From: a virus
Strand: one strand, 5' to 3'
Virus record (IMG/VR): IMGVR_UViG_3300042544_000617
Location: 1 to 26,832 of that record
Length of the DNA: 26,832 nucleotides
The notes under the pieces are model-generated. The model ran no database searches. It worked only from the letters and a program-made list of their open reading frames with translations, and had not been told where the DNA came from. This document shows, piece by piece, positions 2,971-26,832 of this stretch. How positions within the stretch are numbered: position 1 is the stretch's first letter; the number at the start of each line of letters is the position of its first letter. The translations under genes were made by a program, and so were the position numbers.

Positions 2971-4524
2971 TTACGCCTCCAGAATTGAGTAGCGGATTAC
3001 CCATGCGACGGTCATCGTCGCCGGAAGTGCAGGGGTGGCTGTTAATCGCAAATTTGTACCGTCTGTTGTTCGGCTTAACAGGCTCACATCAAATCCAGGC
3101 ACGATTACAGCGTACCGATCAGCGTCTGCGCCGTTGCCGACATTAACATCTTGCTGATCGGCTCCTGTCACTGTCGCAATGATTGACTCAATATAGGCAT
3201 TAGCCGGCAGAATCGCTTGATTGACGCCGCCAATGTATTGCAGTTCGTTCGTGCCAGACCACGTGTTAGTCCATCTGACCTCACGGGTTTGTGATACAGG
3301 GCGACCAACGACTGTTGCGCCGGATGCAGGCAGCAACGCGTGATTCTTGTTGCCGCTTGTGTCAAATATTTGGCCGGTGTTGCTTTGGGCGTTTGAGGCT
3401 AGGAGTTCGGAGGTTAGGCCGATTTGTTTCACGCTAAAATCCGTGATTGCGAAAGACCCGCCGCCTGCACCTGTGTTTATGTTAAATAATATATTTGCGC
3501 GATCAGCACTCGGCCCAGCAAACTCTACTATATATTTTTGACCAGACACAATTGCCGGTGCTGTGAGTGCAGGCGTGAAGCCTAGTGCGCTACCAGTGCC
3601 AGTTGACGCCGTTATGGACGCTAATGTCGCGTTAGTAAAAGTTGGCGTAAATTCAATTCTATAATTTTTCCCAGTTTTAACTGGTGCGGCAACATATACT
3701 CTAATGCCCGTTTTTGTTGTCGCGTCAGATGCCGTAAAAGCGGACGCCCCTGCACTTGCGAAAGTATCAAAAGATGTTGTGAAGGTATTAAGCCATGCGC
3801 CTGATGACAGCTCAGTCTGACTCGCCCCCCGATCAGTCAGCGCAACGCCGTTGATGCTAAGGTCCAGGACTTCTGCTGCTGACAAAGCGCGGTTATATTG
3901 AAACTGACTAATAAAGCTAGACGCAGCCCTCGTTGAGGCTGCGGTTCCACCGACATTGCCTGCGTTTATGTACCGAACGCCTGCGTTGCTCAGGCTAACT
4001 GTCGCAGCCGCAGTGATGCTGCCAGAGGCAAAAAGAACGCCATTTATATATACCGCATACGACCCTGCAACTGTCGCAGTCTCTCTAATAATTGAAACAG
4101 CGTATCTGGCGGATTGACCGTAGTACGCGGCGATTGATGCCGTAGTAAAACTTATAACAGTCGCGCCGGACACAAAAGCCGCAAAATTCATCACCCCATT
4201 CGTATCGACAAACCAATAAACCCTATTATTAGCATCGACTCGTTTTACAAAAAATGCGTGGAACGAGCCGCTGTACACAGTATCCGTCTGTGCAACTGTA
4301 AAGCTAGATGCGCCGAAATCCAGATTGGCGTTATCAAGCTGCTGTATCCCGCCCACAGTAGTTGATGCCGCCATCTGCACGGCGATGGCTTGTGCCGGTG
4401 GACTCAGCCGAGAGTTCAGCTCTGCAATCGGTACGTAGCCCAGATTGCTATCCTGAGAGGTTCCGTCGGTGACGAGTAGGTGGGTCGGCGTCGTTACCGG
4501 CTGTCTAATATCTTTAGTGCTCAT
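2971..4524 (-). CDS. Tail fibre-type protein with LamG/concanavalin-like domain
   Basis: The protein has 517 residues from the ATG at 4524, which overlaps the stop of the upstream 42-aa gene (ATGA). An in-frame GTG at 4530 is the alternative. Residues ~1-60 form a short attachment segment ending in a conserved-looking VGGIQQLDNANLDF. Residues ~65-230 look like a LamG/concanavalin-fold domain: alternating beta strands, then the typical closing helix motif YNRALSAAEVLDLSINGV. A second beta-sandwich-like region follows at ~245-360. The C-terminus (~400-517) is another beta domain. LamG-like domains in phage fibres bind saccharides or serve as structural modules, so host-surface binding is likely. 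No hydrolase motif was seen. Confidence 0.75.
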   Translation of the reverse strand: MSTKDIRQPVTTPTHLLVTDGTSQDSNLGYVPIAELNSRLSPPAQAIAVQMAASTTVGGIQQLDNANLDFGASSFTVAQTDTVYSGSFHAFFVKRVDANNRVYWFVDTNGVMNFAAFVSGATVISFTTASIAAYYGQSARYAVSIIRETATVAGSYAVYINGVLFASGSITAAATVSLSNAGVRYINAGNVGGTAASTRAASSFISQFQYNRALSAAEVLDLSINGVALTDRGASQTELSSGAWLNTFTTSFDTFASAGASAFTASDATTKTGIRVYVAAPVKTGKNYRIEFTPTFTNATLASITASTGTGSALGFTPALTAPAIVSGQKYIVEFAGPSADRANILFNINTGAGGGSFAITDFSVKQIGLTSELLASNAQSNTGQIFDTSGNKNHALLPASGATVVGRPVSQTREVRWTNTWSGTNELQYIGGVNQAILPANAYIESIIATVTGADQQDVNVGNGADADRYAVIVPGFDVSLLSRTTDGTNLRLTATPALPATMTVAWVIRYSILEA

Positions 4525-4649
4525 ATCCACGATACCTCGTCAGTGTTCCACATAATGGCAGCGGTTCCCCAATATAGCTGAAAGGAGCTAGTCCCGCCAC
4601 CGCCACCGCCAACGATGACACCCATCCGCATCATGCCCATGCCGAACAT
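4521..4649 (-). CDS. Small glycine-rich protein (42 aa)
   Basis: This 42-codon ORF fills the gap between two fibre-region genes. The start is Met-rich (MFGMGMMRMG), followed by a six-glycine run and an aromatic C-terminal half (SSFQLYWGTAAIMWNTDEVSWI region). It starts two bases after the preceding stop and ends in an ATGA overlap with the LamG-like fibre gene. Small proteins with a Met/Gly-rich head and an aromatic tail are common among phage fibre genes, but their role is unknown. They could be capping or assembly peptides. The ribosome site is weak (GGTGG), so it may rely on coupling. Confidence 0.55.
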   Translation of the reverse strand: MFGMGMMRMGVIVGGGGGGTSSFQLYWGTAAIMWNTDEVSWI

Positions 4650-5291: not shown

Positions 5292-6310
5292 GTTCTACGC
5301 ACCCCGTATAACGTGAATATGCCTGACTGAATGTTGCCCGTATTTATGAAGAATCTAACGGCATTTACCGGCAATATTGATCCAACCCTCATCCCTGAAG
5401 ATACGCCGCTATTAATGTTTCCGACGCTGTTAATCTGCATCCATGTCCATAAAAAGGTTTTTTGTTTTACGGCGCTAGATGGATTTATTAACATCATTTC
5501 AAACGAGCCGCCCGGATCTTCTGACACATCATTCCTGACGCTTGTCAGCACACGGAGGCTGCTGCCTGTAGACGGCGCGTCAATGGTGAGGAATGAATAA
5601 TCCGTTCCTCCCGAATCATAAGTCGCGCCGCCGTTTGTTGAAGTCCTCATCAATAACTGCTGACTGGTTGACGCCGGGACTACGTTTAATCCATGAACAC
5701 GATACTCGCTAAAGTCTGCGCTCAACCCGGTAAAGTCTACCGTTGCAGAGTTTGAAGCCGTAACGGTTGCAATAGGAACCATGACCTTGATTGACGACTG
5801 CGTTACATTGCCAATACCTTGCGGGTCTGAAGTATCAACAGTGTATACATTGCCGTTATTAGTGCCATCAAAGCCTATCTGTTTAACAAACAGTCTCCAC
5901 TTTTCCGGAGATAAAAGCGGGTCGTTTGCAATGTTGCTATTATCACGGGATACGTAAAAGTAGCCATCAGAACCAGCAACAACGGCATTGACCGGATAAG
6001 ACACATCAGTCGACCAGGTGGAAAATGATTCATCGCCCGCTGAGAAGTCCCCAACAGGATCTCTTGTCTCAATTATCTCGCCTTCTGAATCCTTCAATAC
6101 AGCCTTCGCCACCCCTGAAAAGAACACATTGGGAAGCCTGCCCGCTGCATCAAGTAACACAGGGTTAGTGTTCTTAATGGTCATGGCTGAGTCTGAATAG
6201 GTATCCTTCAGCGTAGTAGTGCCGGGTTCATAGAAAGTAACCGAGCCACCGCCCAAGACTACGTTGTCATCGGTGAAATACTGTGTGCCTAGTGTTCCGA
6301 AGCGAGCTAT
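5288..6310 (-). CDS. Tail fibre/spike N-terminal-domain protein with ATA start
   Basis: The protein has 340 residues if translated from ATA at 6310. Residues 1-75 form a virion-attachment region with the pattern GGSVTFYEPGTTTLKDTY, then NPVLLDAAGRLP. This resembles the P22 tailspike head-binding and related fibre N-termini. Residues ~95-150 contain a WSTDVSYPVNAVVAGSDGYFYVS carbohydrate-binding-like block. The C-terminal ~170 residues look like a beta sandwich. No in-frame ATG or GTG lies near the 5' end. The ATA has GGGAGGG with a 7-base spacer and overlaps the upstream TAG by four bases (ATAG), exactly like the ATGA overlaps elsewhere. The next usable in-frame codon is TTG at 6256, which has no ribosome site and would remove 18 residues of the conserved domain. 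The ATA probably descends from ATG. Confidence 0.75.
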   Translation of the reverse strand: MARFGTLGTQYFTDDNVVLGGGSVTFYEPGTTTLKDTYSDSAMTIKNTNPVLLDAAGRLPNVFFSGVAKAVLKDSEGEIIETRDPVGDFSAGDESFSTWSTDVSYPVNAVVAGSDGYFYVSRDNSNIANDPLLSPEKWRLFVKQIGFDGTNNGNVYTVDTSDPQGIGNVTQSSIKVMVPIATVTASNSATVDFTGLSADFSEYRVHGLNVVPASTSQQLLMRTSTNGGATYDSGGTDYSFLTIDAPSTGSSLRVLTSVRNDVSEDPGGSFEMMLINPSSAVKQKTFLWTWMQINSVGNINSGVSSGMRVGSILPVNAVRFFINTGNIQSGIFTLYGVRRT

Positions 6311-6813
6311 GATTGTACCCTCCCGTGGTTCGCGTGGAACCCATATCTATTTTCGGCAGACTTCCTTGCACAGCATGCGTCAAGGAAATTGATAAAGCTT
6401 CCCACTTCATGAAAGATGTTAGCGTGCTTTATTCTTACCCTCCAGTTATTGTTATTTTTATTCCAAGCAACGCCCATTATTCCGGTAGTATTATTTGAGC
6501 AAAGCTTTCTATTCTGCATGTTTTCGGAATGGGAAACTCCGCGCAAATTATCCCACGCATTATCAGATGAATCCCCGTTTATATGATCAACTTCTTCCGG
6601 TATATACCCTTGCATTATAAGGAATGCAATTTGGTGGGCGCGGTATATGGTCTTGTCAGCCATAATCACTATTCTGTTACCAAGCCTGTCTAAACTTCCC
6701 GCTTTTTGACCAATTTTAACTACGTTTGAGTTAGAGGCTTTCCACGTAATATCGCCGGTTTCTGGATTGTAATCAAAAAGCTCTTTTGCTCTTGATTGCG
6801 TTAATCTTGCCAT
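6307..6813 (-). CDS. HNH homing endonuclease, free-standing
   Basis: The protein has 168 residues. The HNH_3-type core is at ~53-91 and includes YRAHQIAF, VDHINGDSSDN and WDNLR; the D-H pair at 76-77 is the metal/catalytic site. An AP2-like DNA-binding region (GIMGVAWNKNNNNWRVRI) follows at ~111-129. Such enzymes nick or cut a specific site and spread their own gene between related phages. It lies exactly between the ejection-protein stop (TAATG overlap) and the fibre start, not within an intron or intein. It is visibly AT-richer than its neighbours, which supports recent transfer. Its start context (GGGAG, then ATGGC) probably belonged to the fibre gene, because the first codons M-A-R mirror the fibre's [M]-A-R. 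Confidence 0.9.
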   Translation of the reverse strand: MARLTQSRAKELFDYNPETGDITWKASNSNVVKIGQKAGSLDRLGNRIVIMADKTIYRAHQIAFLIMQGYIPEEVDHINGDSSDNAWDNLRGVSHSENMQNRKLCSNNTTGIMGVAWNKNNNNWRVRIKHANIFHEVGSFINFLDACCARKSAENRYGFHANHGRVQS

Positions 6814-22624: not shown

Positions 22625-23137
22625 ATGGACGCAACGGTAAGCAAGGTTTCAGATTCAGGATCAAAAATTGAAGTTAAGTGGTCTGCGTCAATGGTAAACA
22701 CATCTCTTGACGGAGATGTGTGCGGCAAAGAATTAATTTCTTTTGGTGAATTGACCCTGTCCGGCAAAGACGGCAGCGTAGCTGTGTACGCTCGCGGCGG
22801 CCTTAACGCTGTATCGACAAGCTGGCCAAACATGCCAGCTACAGCGGTAGCTGTAGTGCGCGGTATGCGCGGCAGCAAGGAGATTGTGCAACCAATTTCC
22901 AAAAGCACTTACGACCTGATATTGCAGTTGTTTGCTGAGGCAAAAAAATTAGCTGAAGCTGATTGCCAGCAACCAGTGGCGACAAAAAAAGAAGAAGCCA
23001 ACGTTTTTGTTGTCAATCCCCGGTATGCTCACATGAGCCCCGAGCAAATCAGAGCCGCAGAGCGGCGATACTACCTCGTAAATAACGAGGGCGGCGAAGG
23101 GTATAACCCGTACCGTGACAATCTTTTTTCACAATAG
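22625..23137 (+). CDS. Unknown protein, first gene of a short rightward operon (170 aa)
   Basis: The 170-residue product is not recognised. Residues 1-85 alternate polar and hydrophobic residues (SKIEVKWSASM, ELTLSGKDGSVAVYARG) and look beta-rich. Residues ~92-115 are helical (SKSTYDLILQLFAEAKKLAEAD). A polar linker follows, and then MSPEQIRAAERRYYLVNNEG (~136-155). There is no signal peptide or membrane segment. The ATG follows GAGGG. Orientation is opposite to the late operon and its promoter carries an operator-like palindrome, which suggests an early or regulated accessory function such as host takeover, replication support or defence. Confidence 0.7.
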   Translation: MDATVSKVSDSGSKIEVKWSASMVNTSLDGDVCGKELISFGELTLSGKDGSVAVYARGGLNAVSTSWPNMPATAVAVVRGMRGSKEIVQPISKSTYDLILQLFAEAKKLAEADCQQPVATKKEEANVFVVNPRYAHMSPEQIRAAERRYYLVNNEGGEGYNPYRDNLFSQ

Positions 23138-23178: not shown

Positions 23179-23340
23179 ATGAACAAAGATAAAGCGACCA
23201 CCCCAACATCACTAAGGCTGCCTGACGGCCTCTTGCGTCAACTGACAAAGGCTGCACATAAGTGCGAGATGTCACGCACGCAGTATATCACAACCGTCTT
23301 GCAAGAGGCGGTTAACAAAACGCTGGAGGTTAAGAAATGA
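23179..23340 (+). CDS. Small ribbon-helix-helix regulator (Arc-like size)
   Basis: The protein has 53 residues, the size of P22 Arc. A short strand (TTPTSLRLPDGL) leads into a first helix (LLRQLTKAAHKCEM). A turn and second helix (SRTQYITTVLQEAVNKTLE) follow, which is the ribbon-helix-helix pattern. Such proteins bind DNA as dimers on short repeated half-sites and commonly repress their own operon. Candidate sites are the TGTAGTA/TACTACA operator upstream and the TAGTA-rich island just downstream. The ATG follows AAGGA, and the stop overlaps the next start (ATGA). RHH proteins also act as antitoxins or partition factors. Confidence 0.75.
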   Translation: MNKDKATTPTSLRLPDGLLRQLTKAAHKCEMSRTQYITTVLQEAVNKTLEVKK

Positions 23341-23423: not shown

Positions 23424-23429
23424 CCCCCC

Positions 23430-23452
23430 TGCGCTGGCTTATGGCTGGCGCA
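23430..23452 (+). other. Hairpin after the rightward operon
   Basis: TGCGCTGGC and GCTGGCGCA can form a 9-pair stem in RNA, including two G-U pairs, with a TTATG loop, just after the last stop of the rightward operon. It is not followed by a T run on the plus strand, so it may stabilise the mRNA end rather than terminate by itself. The T-rich stretch after the next inverted repeat (23502-23523) may do that. Confidence 0.35.
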
Positions 23453-23464
23453 TTCAAAAAAATA

Positions 23465-23501
23465 AACTCTAGTAAAACTATAGTAAAATTTTACTAGAGT
23501 T
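23465..23501. repeat. Inverted repeat A with 13-bp arms
   Basis: AACTCTAGTAAAA and TTTTACTAGAGTT enclose 11 bases containing one ACTATAGT copy. Nested inside is the 16-base palindrome TAGTAAAATTTTACTA (23481-23496). On the minus strand the hairpin is followed by TTATTTTTTTG, and on the plus strand by TATTTTCTTC. It could therefore also act as a two-way terminator between the converging operons. Confidence 0.6.
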
Positions 23502-23596
23502 ATTTTCTTCTAAGTCTTTCTTTTTATTAATTATTTTAAAACTATAGTATTATAGTTATATATATAGAGACACCCTAAAAACAATAAACGAATTTA

Positions 23597-23623
23597 TATA
23601 GTGTCTCTAGGAGAGTCACTATA
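23597..23623. repeat. Near-perfect hairpin D
   Basis: TATAGTG is paired with CACTATA, one mismatch, and then TCTC/GAGA-type pairs surround a TAGG-like centre. An ACTATAGT copy begins in its right arm. The left arm also competes with the GTGTCTCTA/TAGAGACAC repeat (23565-23609), so alternative structures are possible. Confidence 0.5.
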
Positions 23624-23672
23624 GTTACTAGAGTTTCGGAATTCGTATAAAAGACAATAACTTGCGGAGATA

Positions 23673-23721
23673 AAACCTTAGTAAAACGCTACTATAGTTT
23701 TACTATAGTTTACTAAGGTTT
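23673..23721. repeat. Inverted repeat E with tandem iterons
   Basis: AAACCTTAGTAAA and TTTACTAAGGTTT (13 bp each) enclose two tandem copies of TACTATAGTTT. The content is a near inverted copy of repeat A at the other end of the island. It lies 42 bases beyond the primase stop. T-rich flanks on both strands allow a second role as terminator. Confidence 0.6.
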
Positions 23722-23762
23722 CTTTCTAACTTGCTGTTTTCATTATGATAACTGCATTAAAA

Positions 23763-26048
23763 TCATTTTGCTAACATTATTTTCTTAGTAACCGGCCCGC
23801 GCTGCGGCTTGTGTTCTGCCTCAATTAGATGGCCGCTTTTAACCAGCCTGTCCACCGCCTCGCGCACCTGCTCTTTTTTGTATGCCCTGCACTGGTTGCA
23901 CAGTGATCCGACCGTTTCCCCATGCTCGGTAGTCACCAGCGACAATATGCGCGCAAACAAAGCGTCACCCTTGTCTGGTGCGCTGTTGCTGTATGCCAGC
24001 TTCATCTTGCCTTCAATGTCTCGGCGTACCAGTTTGTATGCCCACTGCACATGCTCCAGCGTGCGTAGCCCCGAAGGGATAGCCAGCACCGCAGACACCT
24101 TTGCGACAAGCTCATAACCCCTGCGTGGGATGGCCTGCATCCCTGTTGACTCAGCGTGCTGCGCGGCAATCTCCCAGAAACGCTCCGAGACGTCATCCAG
24201 CGCGTTTACCGCCTCTGCTGTTGTCTGTATATCGCTTTTGTCGCCAATGCGCTCAACGCGCTCGGAGGCGGCGTCGAAGTAGCCGGGCGCGTACAGGTTC
24301 TGCAACGTGTACTTGATCCTGTCCGGCACTTCCTGCCTGCTGCGCTTGTCGCGTGGCTTGATGCGAGGGTTCTTTTCAAGCTCTTGGAATATCAGTGCGC
24401 GTCCCATAAAGCCGTTCGCCACAAGCTCAAAGTCCATCAGGTTGTTAAACTTCTCAGGCGTGGTCAGTCCAAAGATCGACAAAAACGGGTGTTCTATGCC
24501 CATGTCAATGGTGGACAGCGACTGGCCAACCCGCGCAAGCCTAGCCTCTAGCCTGCCGTTTTTGTCCTCGTTGGCGTCCACCGCTTTTTGTAGCCGCGTG
24601 CGCTCGGCAACCAAAGACTGCCTGACCTCCTCTTTGAGATCGCCAGTGATCGCCACAAAGCTGTTCGCCTTGCTGTAAATGTTCATCAGTGTGCCGATGA
24701 CGCCCTCAAGATACACTGCGCCGCCGCGTTTTTGTGCGCTGCTGATCTTTGCGAAATGCTCCCCAAGCTCATCAATGGAGTAGTAAGCCGCTTGATGGCG
24801 TATCAAATTACGATAAATCTCCTGCTCTGACTTAATACCGCCCACCAGTGCCGCGCTTATGCCAGCAGCCTTTAGCAGCTCATTGTGCGCTTGCAGAATG
24901 GCCTCCTTGCCGGTGCTTGAATCTGCCACGCCAAAACAAAACAGGTTAAAAGCAGAATTATCCAGCGGATCTCGGTAGCGCATCCCAGCGCAGTTGCTGA
25001 CCACCATCAGCGCCGCAGCCACTGCAAGGGTTTCGCGTGGAAACAGCGACCGGCTGTTGATCCACTGGACAAGATCGCCGACAAAGCCAGGTGGGCGAAG
25101 CAGATCAACCGTTGCCGCGTCAATGTCCACCGCGTAATCAGTAAAGTCTGGAACGTCCCCGCTGAAGGTCACAGGCTCCTGCCATCCCGCCTGCTCTGCG
25201 TAGTGCATCAGCGTGCCAATGGTGACAGGGTTTGACGACTTACCGAAGCTGTGCCAGCGCGCTTCAATCCTGCTGCCTGATCCGTTCTTTTTGTAGCGTG
25301 GTGACTGCGCCGCCCACTGCTCCCACAGCGCAAGACCTTCTAAGCTCCCATCAGTTGCATCATGGATGCCCATGCCGATGCGGATATAGACCTCATGTCC
25401 AACGTCTGCGCTGTTTGGGATAGACATAACCATCTGCGTCAAATCAGCAAACGACAAATCAACCGCAACGCCGCTGACCTGCTTACGCACGCGATCTGGC
25501 TTTTGCAGCAGCGCAAGGAGCTGGTCTGGTGCTAAGTCTATGTCGTATGGTGAGCCAACAACGGCCTCATACCTGCGCCCACTGGCGTGCAGGGAGCCTG
25601 GCCCGACCACAAAACCGCTGGATTTAAAGTCAATACCCCTGTAGTCGTCATGGTGCTGCGCCAGCGCCATGTTAGCCGGTATGCGAAAATACAAATGCTG
25701 CGAGCCTCCACCGCTGCCGGTTTCTACAATCAACCCAGCCCCAGCGACCTCTGGCACTAACTCCAGCAGCCTGGCGTAGCTCTGTACGCCGCCGTTGCGT
25801 GCGTCAACATCAACGACCAGCAGCCCATCGGCCACCAACACACCGTAACCAGTAGCAAGCTGGCCGGTGATCTCCATAACCTCTATCTGTTCGCCTGACC
25901 ACTGCGGCGTGTGTTGCCAGTTGGACGCCACTGGATGCTTTAATATGGCATTGCAGTGCGGATTGCCGCACATGCAGCGCCCTGCCTTGTCTGCGCCGTA
26001 AAGCCCGAATATTCTATAACCTGCCTCCATAAATTCAGCGTATTGCAT
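23763..26048 (-). CDS. Primase-polymerase / DUF3987-type helicase fusion
   Basis: This 761-residue replication protein starts with a prim-pol domain (~1-185). It has a possible zinc loop CMCGNPHC (25-32), catalytic acids in VVDVD (80, 82), SQH (116-118) and GIDFKSSGFVVGPGSLH (D140), as in the bifunctional primase/polymerase family. A PriCT-2-like helical linker follows (~203-290). The C-terminal part (~320-760) resembles DUF3987 ATPases, with a Walker A-like GVADSSTGKE (373-382) and Walker B YYSIDE (423-428). The residue after Lys is Glu, not Ser/Thr, so ATP binding may be altered. It would prime and unwind phage DNA. The ATG follows GGAGGG and overlaps the HTH gene by 14 bases. The repeat island lies just downstream. 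Confidence 0.88.
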   Translation of the reverse strand: MQYAEFMEAGYRIFGLYGADKAGRCMCGNPHCNAILKHPVASNWQHTPQWSGEQIEVMEITGQLATGYGVLVADGLLVVDVDARNGGVQSYARLLELVPEVAGAGLIVETGSGGGSQHLYFRIPANMALAQHHDDYRGIDFKSSGFVVGPGSLHASGRRYEAVVGSPYDIDLAPDQLLALLQKPDRVRKQVSGVAVDLSFADLTQMVMSIPNSADVGHEVYIRIGMGIHDATDGSLEGLALWEQWAAQSPRYKKNGSGSRIEARWHSFGKSSNPVTIGTLMHYAEQAGWQEPVTFSGDVPDFTDYAVDIDAATVDLLRPPGFVGDLVQWINSRSLFPRETLAVAAALMVVSNCAGMRYRDPLDNSAFNLFCFGVADSSTGKEAILQAHNELLKAAGISAALVGGIKSEQEIYRNLIRHQAAYYSIDELGEHFAKISSAQKRGGAVYLEGVIGTLMNIYSKANSFVAITGDLKEEVRQSLVAERTRLQKAVDANEDKNGRLEARLARVGQSLSTIDMGIEHPFLSIFGLTTPEKFNNLMDFELVANGFMGRALIFQELEKNPRIKPRDKRSRQEVPDRIKYTLQNLYAPGYFDAASERVERIGDKSDIQTTAEAVNALDDVSERFWEIAAQHAESTGMQAIPRRGYELVAKVSAVLAIPSGLRTLEHVQWAYKLVRRDIEGKMKLAYSNSAPDKGDALFARILSLVTTEHGETVGSLCNQCRAYKKEQVREAVDRLVKSGHLIEAEHKPQRGPVTKKIMLAK

Positions 26049-26214
26049 TGCAGGTTCCCTCCAAGTAGGCAGACAGGCGCTCCAGCGTACTAACCTTTAT
26101 GTCTTGCCCGCGCAACGCCCGATAGATGGTCGCCTCGCTGATGCCTGATCTTTTAGCGACTTCTCTGATATTCCTATCAGCAAGCGCCTCGCGCATTTGT
26201 TCTACTGTTAACAT
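26035..26214 (-). CDS. Small HTH regulator
   Basis: The 59-residue protein starts MLTVEQMREALADRNIREVA. Its helix-turn-helix is REVAKRSGISEATIYRALRG (~17-36), followed by a short helix (VSTLERLSAYLEG). The ATG at 26214 has AAGGTG 6 bases upstream; an in-frame ATG at 26247 has no such site and lies in the promoter. It is the first gene of the leftward replication operon and probably controls the divergent promoters directly upstream, in the manner of a Cro-like or XRE-type repressor. Family membership is judged from the HTH only. Confidence 0.8.
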   Translation of the reverse strand: MLTVEQMREALADRNIREVAKRSGISEATIYRALRGQDIKVSTLERLSAYLEGTCNAIR

Positions 26215-26231
26215 TTTGACACCTTTTTCTT

Positions 26232-26241
26232 GCACATGTGC
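26232..26241. promoter_or_regulatory. Palindrome GCACATGTGC, candidate operator
   Basis: This perfect 10-base palindrome lies about where leftward transcription should begin, between the -10 and the HTH start. It is a plausible operator for autoregulation by the HTH protein. A TTGCA block lies on both sides of it. Confidence 0.4.
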
Positions 26242-26274
26242 TTGCATAGTAAATCAAACCATAATAAGATGCAA
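26242..26274. promoter_or_regulatory. Fully overlapping, face-to-face divergent promoters
   Basis: Leftward: -35 TTGCAT (26274-26269), 17-base spacer, -10 TACTAT (26251-26246), for the HTH and primase genes. Rightward: -35 TTGCAT (26242-26247), 17-base spacer, -10 TAAGAT (26265-26270), for the Sak4-like ATPase. Each -35 lies within or next to the other's -10, and the two hexamers form an inverted repeat. Polymerase can occupy only one orientation at a time, which would make a built-in switch. Confidence 0.55.
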
Positions 26275-26334: not shown

Positions 26335-26832
26335 ATGAGTATGTTAAGCCAGATCAGCAAACCTGCTGATCGTCCCGTGATAGTCACCATTCTTGGTGAT
26401 AGCGGCCTCGGTAAAACCACCCTGGCAGCATCGTTCCCCAACCCTATCGTGATCCGCGCAGAGGATGGCCTCCAAGCCATACCAGCAGAACTGCGCCCAG
26501 ATGCCTTCCATTTGGTGCAGAAAGAGGAGGAGGTCTGGCAGCAGATCATGGCACTGTTGCAGGAGCAGCACGATTACAAGACCGTCATCATCGACAGCGT
26601 GACCGCGCTTGAGCGTCTGTTTGTCCAGCACGTAATTGACAGCGACAGCAAAAAGCCCCGCAGCATCAACCAAGCCCTTGGCGGGTATGGCGCTGGACTG
26701 CAAGCGGTTGCAAGTCTGCACCAGCGTGTGCGTAGGGCCTGCGGCTTGTTAAATGAGCGCAAAGGTATGCACGTTGTATTTGTGGCGCACGCCGACACAG
26801 AAACAATTGAGCTGCCCGACCAGGACCCGTAC
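26335..26832 (+). CDS. Sak4-like RecA-fold ATPase (partial, runs off the end)
   Basis: The first 166 residues are present, with no stop before the window end. Walker A GDSGLGKTT is at 21-29, followed by LAASFPNPIVIRAEDGLQAIP. Walker B is in KTVIIDSVTALERL (~86-99), and HVVFVAHAD near ~150 is a sensor-like strand. This is the pattern of phage AAA_24/Sak4-type nucleotide-binding proteins that assist single-strand annealing recombination and replication. The ATG follows GAGGTG. It is divergent from the primase operon and probably heads a rightward recombination/replication operon. Confidence 0.85.
   Translation, partial: MSMLSQISKPADRPVIVTILGDSGLGKTTLAASFPNPIVIRAEDGLQAIPAELRPDAFHLVQKEEEVWQQIMALLQEQHDYKTVIIDSVTALERLFVQHVIDSDSKKPRSINQALGGYGAGLQAVASLHQRVRRACGLLNERKGMHVVFVAHADTETIELPDQDPY

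Follow-up and report, generated by a model that had tools for sequence, protein, structure and literature searches.

A mirrored array of iterons beside a PrimPol/MCM-like replication gene as a candidate replication origin in a phage genome

The window, the entire 26,832-nucleotide stretch of DNA analysed here, covers 26.8 kb of a phage genome and specifies a Terminase_3 large subunit together with P22-like portal and coat proteins; Rfam and tRNA searches of it produced no matches. A 339 bp gap at 23424-23762, with a GC content of 28.9% as compared to 51.1% for the window, separates a short plus-strand ORF from the stop codon of a minus-strand primase-helicase gene. The AT-richest 150 bp of the window (23451-23600, 18% GC) fall here and represent an AT-rich region adjacent to the repeats, as is found for unwinding in iteron-type origins. 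The gap and its repeats are as follows.

23424-23762, unstranded: AT-rich intergenic gap with the candidate origin, from the short plus-strand ORF to the primase stop (GC content, ORF list and sequence)
23464-23721, unstranded: candidate replication origin, ten iterons, dyad at about 23587.5 (repeat and symmetry analyses)
23464-23476, plus strand: iteron A, AAACTCTAGTAAA (13-mer scan)
23475-23487, plus strand: iteron B, AAACTATAGTAAA (13-mer scan)
23490-23502, minus strand: iteron C, TAACTCTAGTAAA (13-mer scan)
23539-23551, plus strand: iteron D, AAACTATAGTATT (13-mer scan)
23618-23625, unstranded: iteron core E, ACTATAGT, palindromic (exact-copy count and 13-mer scan)
23624-23636, minus strand: iteron F, AAACTCTAGTAAC (13-mer scan)
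23673-23685, plus strand: iteron G, AAACCTTAGTAAA (13-mer scan)
23688-23700, minus strand: iteron H, AAACTATAGTAGC (13-mer scan)
23699-23711, minus strand: iteron I, AAACTATAGTAAA (13-mer scan)
23709-23721, minus strand: iteron J, AAACCTTAGTAAA (13-mer scan)

An earlier sequence-only reading of this DNA took an 8-base palindrome in five copies to be the recurring core of the island. The five exact copies of ACTATAGT (at 23477, 23541, 23618, 23691 and 23702) are real: the palindrome occurs nowhere else in the window, for which 0.14 copies would be expected, five or more copies were seen in none of 100 shuffles, and shuffles of the island itself contained 0.065 copies with a maximum of 2. The true repeat unit is, however, a degenerate sequence of approximately 13 bp, AAACYHTAGTAAA, with ACNNTAGT as its core, which is present at ten positions in the island as compared to 0.56 expected from island shuffles (maximum 6 in 2000) and at only three sites in the remaining 26.5 kb of the window, such that the gap contains the multiple short intergenic repeats characteristic of an iteron-type origin. 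As AAACYHTAGTAAA has two free positions, and its core turns into ACTATAGT when these are occupied by TA, which is the case for five of the ten iterons, the palindrome represents a by-product of the iteron. The tandem spacing of 11 bases that had been reported for the island was reproduced.

Along the plus strand the sites are spaced by 11, 16, 48, 77, 9, 48, 16, 11 and 10 bp. Four exact mirror pairs, comprising A, B, C and D with I, H, G and F, account for eight of the ten sites and share a centre at about 23587.5 (spacings 11-16-48 and 48-16-11), an arrangement equalled by just 3 of 20,000 random placements (a chance of about 1.5e-4). The orientations established by the oriented 13-mer scan are mirrored as well (A plus with I minus, B plus with H minus, C minus with G plus, D plus with F minus), those of B, D and H resting on the flanking bases since these three contain the palindromic core. 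The long inverted repeats and the rough symmetry noted previously, with end repeats that are near inverted copies of each other, are genuine: the arms at 23475-23501 and 23685-23711 are 85% complementary, and the island matches its own reverse complement at 68% of positions over 250 bp. Three hairpins are predicted in the gap.

23457-23509, unstranded: outer hairpin formed by iterons A-C, with T-rich tails on both strands (DNA fold -11.5 kcal/mol, z -4.67; terminator-like match)
23564-23610, unstranded: central stem TAGAGACAC / GTGTCTCTA with an AT-rich loop near the dyad centre, candidate unwinding site (DNA fold z -3.21)
23673-23721, unstranded: outer hairpin formed by iterons G-J, with a perfect stem of 13 bp (DNA fold -13.3 kcal/mol, z -5.61)

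Among the relatives described below, the mean fold z was likewise negative near the iteron clusters, as compared to +0.16 for a coding control.

The statement that the island adjoins a primase-helicase gene is borne out, as the iterons begin 42 bp beyond its stop codon, and the features of that gene and its neighbour are given here.

23763-26048, minus strand: replication protein with PrimPol, PriCT_2, MCM-like AAA+ (DUF3987) and C-terminal winged-helix domains (Pfam, PHROG 3022 DNA primase, AlphaFold2 and fold matches)
23766-23978, minus strand: C-terminal winged helix, residues 691-761, the predicted iteron-binding domain (domain model, winged-helix matches and iteron covariation)
26035-26247, minus strand: small Cro-type HTH gene overlapping the primase start (Pfam HTH_3; similar proteins in many relatives, with 45 tblastn matches among the fetched loci)

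The replication protein comprises 761 residues, in which Pfam identifies PrimPol (PF09250), PriCT_2 and, below threshold, DUF3987. Its AlphaFold2 model, based on 53 sequences, has a mean pLDDT of 87.5, and the placement of the domains relative to each other is uncertain owing to a pTM of 0.60. The N-terminal domain is close in fold to the PrimPol of pRN1 (matches to 1rni and 3m1m), the middle domain resembles MCM helicases (Z up to 17.9, rmsd 3.8 over 268 residues), and the last 74 residues, when modelled alone, adopt a winged helix (pLDDT 91.1) for which winged-helix regulators are the best Foldseek matches (E 2e-3); no solved structure was matched when the primase profile was used in a sequence search. 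The repeats therefore adjoin the gene of a putative initiator with its own DNA-binding domain, as in iteron-type origins, and the predicted domain order fits a self-loading initiator.

Relatives were collected in three scans of viral contigs, yielding 85 non-redundant loci, and iterons were detected as repeated 11-mers within 400 bp past the primase stop. By this measure 36 of the 85 (35 of 84 on a re-run, approximately 40%) are iteron-positive and more than half have no detectable iterons past the primase, although the finder keeps only the best repeated word per region, such that it misses weak islands and may count some that are marginal and due to chance. The same detection was positive in 0/85 and 0/85 coding segments, in 3/60 and 0/18 segments further downstream and in one shuffled island. 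In an earlier set of 60 loci, 41 had their AT-richest 150 bp within 600 bp of the primase stop, and 35 their repeat-densest 300 bp. L003, the closest relative found, comes from a different contig and has a primase that is 77% identical; it shares the iteron of the window just past its primase, at offsets 41, 51, 78 (minus) and 116 as compared to 44, 54, 81 (minus) and 129. Elsewhere the iteron words vary (AAACTnTAGTA, aaAnATACACA, tTACACTTATT and TAAATAGnaga, among others). Iteron orientations flip about a centre in the relatives (0.560 as compared to 0.386+/-0.029; 0/500 permutations), and the layout of the window itself was matched (p<0.05) by position in 12 of 34 relatives and by sign in 11, where approximately 1.7 would be expected, the remainder having the symmetry in common but not the exact layout. 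As regards the conservation of core and spacing that had been proposed as a check, the place and the inverted orientation are kept, whereas the iteron sequence differs and the exact layout recurs in just those 12 of 34; from these sequence comparisons, dozens of related viruses appear to retain a comparable layout in this position, every one with a word of its own. A single universal iteron sequence was ruled out, TAGTA being common to subsets only.

In some of the iteron-negative relatives the island has perhaps been relocated. The gaps after the primase genes of phiHSIC and vB_VnaS-L3 contain no iterons, in the relatives from Ferrovum metagenome bins coding sequence follows straight after the primase with no island, and comparison of the island DNA with cultured phages gave weak matches only, the best being Salmonella phages with related primases, whose repeats do not exceed those of shuffles. 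In Vibrio phage pYD21-A (L243:4005-4470; about 39.0-39.46 kb of the record) the primase operon is preceded on its 5′ side by a gap of 30% GC in which nine ACTTATGATCA-like repeats occur, some of them inverted (mean of 4.1 and maximum of 7 in shuffles), and in Escherichia phage Sa179lw (L244:4185-4501) a gap 5′ of the primase gene carries five CAAATAG-type repeats (maximum of 4 in shuffles) and a ATCAGTAACTTA box. IHF consensus sites were present in 23 of the 85 islands as compared to 2.95 in shuffles, while the window has no good IHF site. The box ATCAATRACTTA recurs with at most one mismatch in 16 of the 85 islands (0.8 in shuffles), including those of L003, L010, L198, L022 and L169; it fits the IHF consensus, yet its four 'free' positions are also kept, and on that sequence pattern it is perhaps a second specific site. 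In L003, the 3′ end of an SSB-like gene (about 4345-4600) also contains a strong tandem repeat (z 33.8) that encodes repeated proline/arginine-rich units. Two plus-strand genes of the window, at 22625-23137 (family unknown) and 23179-23340 (a ribbon-helix-helix, RHH, protein), are absent from all fetched relatives, yet adjoin the conserved island.

When relatives are compared in pairs, the more similar their iterons, the more identical their winged helices tend to be (rho 0.30, partial 0.31, 0/300); there is no such correlation for the PrimPol domain (-0.06) and no appreciable one for the helicase (0.10). In sliding blocks the covariation climbs towards the C-terminus (0.17, 0.23, 0.31, with one earlier block at 0.21), and so gradual a rise towards the 3′ end means that it may be due in part to neighbouring DNA being inherited together. 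A natural contrast among the relatives argues for recognition: L170 and L172 differ from L174 and L173 in their iterons, with cores that are 81-83% identical and winged helices that are 47-50% identical, while L176, with a core of only 74-75% identity and a winged helix of 59-64%, keeps TAAATAG.

The RHH protein had been named alongside the primase as a possible binder. RHH proteins bind tandem short palindromes, the Arc-like repressor gene at 23179-23340 (E 4e-5) lies just 120 bp from the island, and the palindromic 8-bp reading of the repeats together with their 11-bp spacing is akin to RHH operators; nevertheless, that the island is an operator or partition site of this Arc/CopG-like protein seems very unlikely. 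The RHH gene was found in the window only, none of the fetched island-bearing relatives, L003 included, having a homologue beside the island or elsewhere in the fetched locus, which makes the primase-helicase the likelier binder. Moreover, the iterons are located past the RHH gene and not at its promoter, and those of several relatives are not palindromic. Greater doubt still attaches to a pac or cos packaging site bound by the small terminase: terminase genes do lie 1.5-3 kb away, and in the window, H103, L018, L028 and L011 no more than a few kb separate them from the primase, but it is the primase to which the position of the island is tied, with terminase genes kilobases off, and it is the primase winged helix with which the iterons covary, in a comparison that covered the domains of the primase.

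Transcription termination has somewhat more in its favour and is still improbable as the sole function. Genes of the window converge on the gap, both outer hairpins fold far better than shuffles and one of them scores as a terminator, such that a bidirectional terminator could be envisaged in which the T-rich tails and stems of these hairpins would end transcripts of the primase on the minus strand and of the ORFs on the plus strand. However, termination requires neither stems so rich in AT (3 G-C pairs of 15 in the one terminator-like match, an intrinsic terminator being defined by a GC-rich stem and a T run), nor a common degenerate iteron, nor exact mirror spacing. The genes that come next in L003 and H103, as annotated or predicted, are co-directional with the primase, and in 9 of the 36 iteron-positive relatives a separate GC-rich terminator is present near the primase stop. 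With its position 5′ of the primase operon, the island of pYD21-A is more than just a terminator for the primase. The earlier argument that terminators alone would not need the recurring core is therefore upheld by these separate terminators and by an island on the other side of the primase. The window hairpins may stop transcription as a second role, and for the hairpin at 23457-23509 termination may be an additional function.

An iteron-type replication origin bound by the winged helix of the adjoining initiator is the best explanation for the island, and one we regard as highly probable; the candidate put forward from sequence is now backed by the position of the island, the dyad orientation and the covariation of winged helix and iterons in relatives. 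The GC skew of the window shows no switch at the island, so that one of the supports by which the sequence-only reading was to be judged is missing; in Pseudoalteromonas phage H103, with its island at about 31.0-31.5 kb, the GC-skew minimum (33.75 kb) lies about 2.5 kb off the island, at a transcription divergence. We infer protein binding, melting, a bidirectional start and origin activity from these features, and propose that the winged helix of the replication protein would bind the ten AAACYHTAGTAAA iterons, which form two outer clusters and two inner groups mirrored about an AT-rich centre with its stem. Owing to this mirror arrangement there would be two oppositely facing assemblies, probably hexamers, which would melt the DNA at the AT-rich centre, load as helicases and supply the primers for bidirectional synthesis, probably with the assistance of host IHF in some relatives.

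Such an arrangement would, by analogy, work like the origins of the SaPI and SCCmec elements and of pRN1 and phage BPP-1. In SaPI origins and at the SCCmec Cch2 site, iterons lie directly downstream of the helicase gene, the C-terminal domain of Cch2 binds its site, as is also stated for SaPI Rep, the assembly of two hexamers has been proposed, and the putative Cch2 origin consists of three 5-nt iterons (PMC7581432). The window likewise has its iterons directly downstream of an initiator-helicase gene, the first of them 42 bp past the stop; in contrast, the helicases of those elements belong to other families and Cch2, with only three 5-nt iterons, has a separate primase, whereas in the window one protein combines PrimPol, MCM-like AAA+ and winged-helix domains and is accompanied by ten iterons in exact mirror spacing. 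The window is a phage genome with P22-like structural genes, and not a staphylococcal island with a Rep or Cch homologue. In plasmid pRN1 a stem-loop of 100 nt is required downstream of the gene for the PrimPol-helicase-winged-helix protein, and the same authors proposed a stem-loop origin for the Bordetella phages BIP-1 and BPP-1, where no iterons were found (PMC4234260). Here too an AEP PrimPol, a helicase and a C-terminal winged helix are united in one protein and large stem-loops (z -4.7, -5.6 and -3.2) are located 3′ of its gene, as is the stem-loop required in pRN1 and proposed in the phages, and the Bordetella phage protein also carries PriCT_2; stem-loop recognition was, however, proposed for those systems without iterons, while the window has both iterons and hairpins. 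As the pRN1 type is defined by an SF3 helicase and the absence of iterons, the island, with ten iterons and an MCM-like AAA+ fold (Z up to 17.9) in its protein, was not classed with it. In BPP-1 (26573-26809; L247:1074-1310), inverted TTTGCCTCG repeats were seen by eye to flank a centre rich in hairpins; they lie past bbp28, about 0.4-0.6 kb downstream of the primase, and as judged by eye they would fit iterons there. The alpha protein of phage P4 primes, unwinds and binds origin repeats through a winged helix (PMC4234260), and compared by description it similarly unites priming, unwinding and origin binding in one protein, although its primase is of the bacterial Toprim type. PrimPol-PV1 and PrimQH, primases of mobile elements, have the same domain order as the window protein, comprising an AEP primase, PriCT, a DUF3987-type ATPase and a C-terminal winged helix. 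Kazlauskas and colleagues raised the possibility of origin recognition by the winged helices in primases of this kind, although no origin sequence is named there (PMC5862659).

Primase-helicases of this kind are common in environmental phages, with hundreds of relatives in one scan, and the literature found, from a search that left most subscription journals outside, holds no documented origin for the family, although one may be described elsewhere. The conserved layout with changing iterons offers dozens of initiator/site pairs for study, through which the self-loading of a fused primase/MCM-like helicase, the evolution of origin specificity and the replication start sites of these phages could be examined. 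More tentatively, and with some doubt on our part, these islands might constitute a broad class of phage origins, as yet undescribed, that serves PrimPol/MCM-like/winged-helix proteins, in which the dyad geometry of the iteron clusters is kept while iteron sequence and winged helix turn over together, and which would be a bacterial-virus analogue of head-to-head double-hexamer loading of MCM-like helicases at a symmetric origin by one protein that also primes. Elsewhere in the window, a minus-strand ORF at 6307-6813 amid the structural genes looks by eye like an HNH homing endonuclease.
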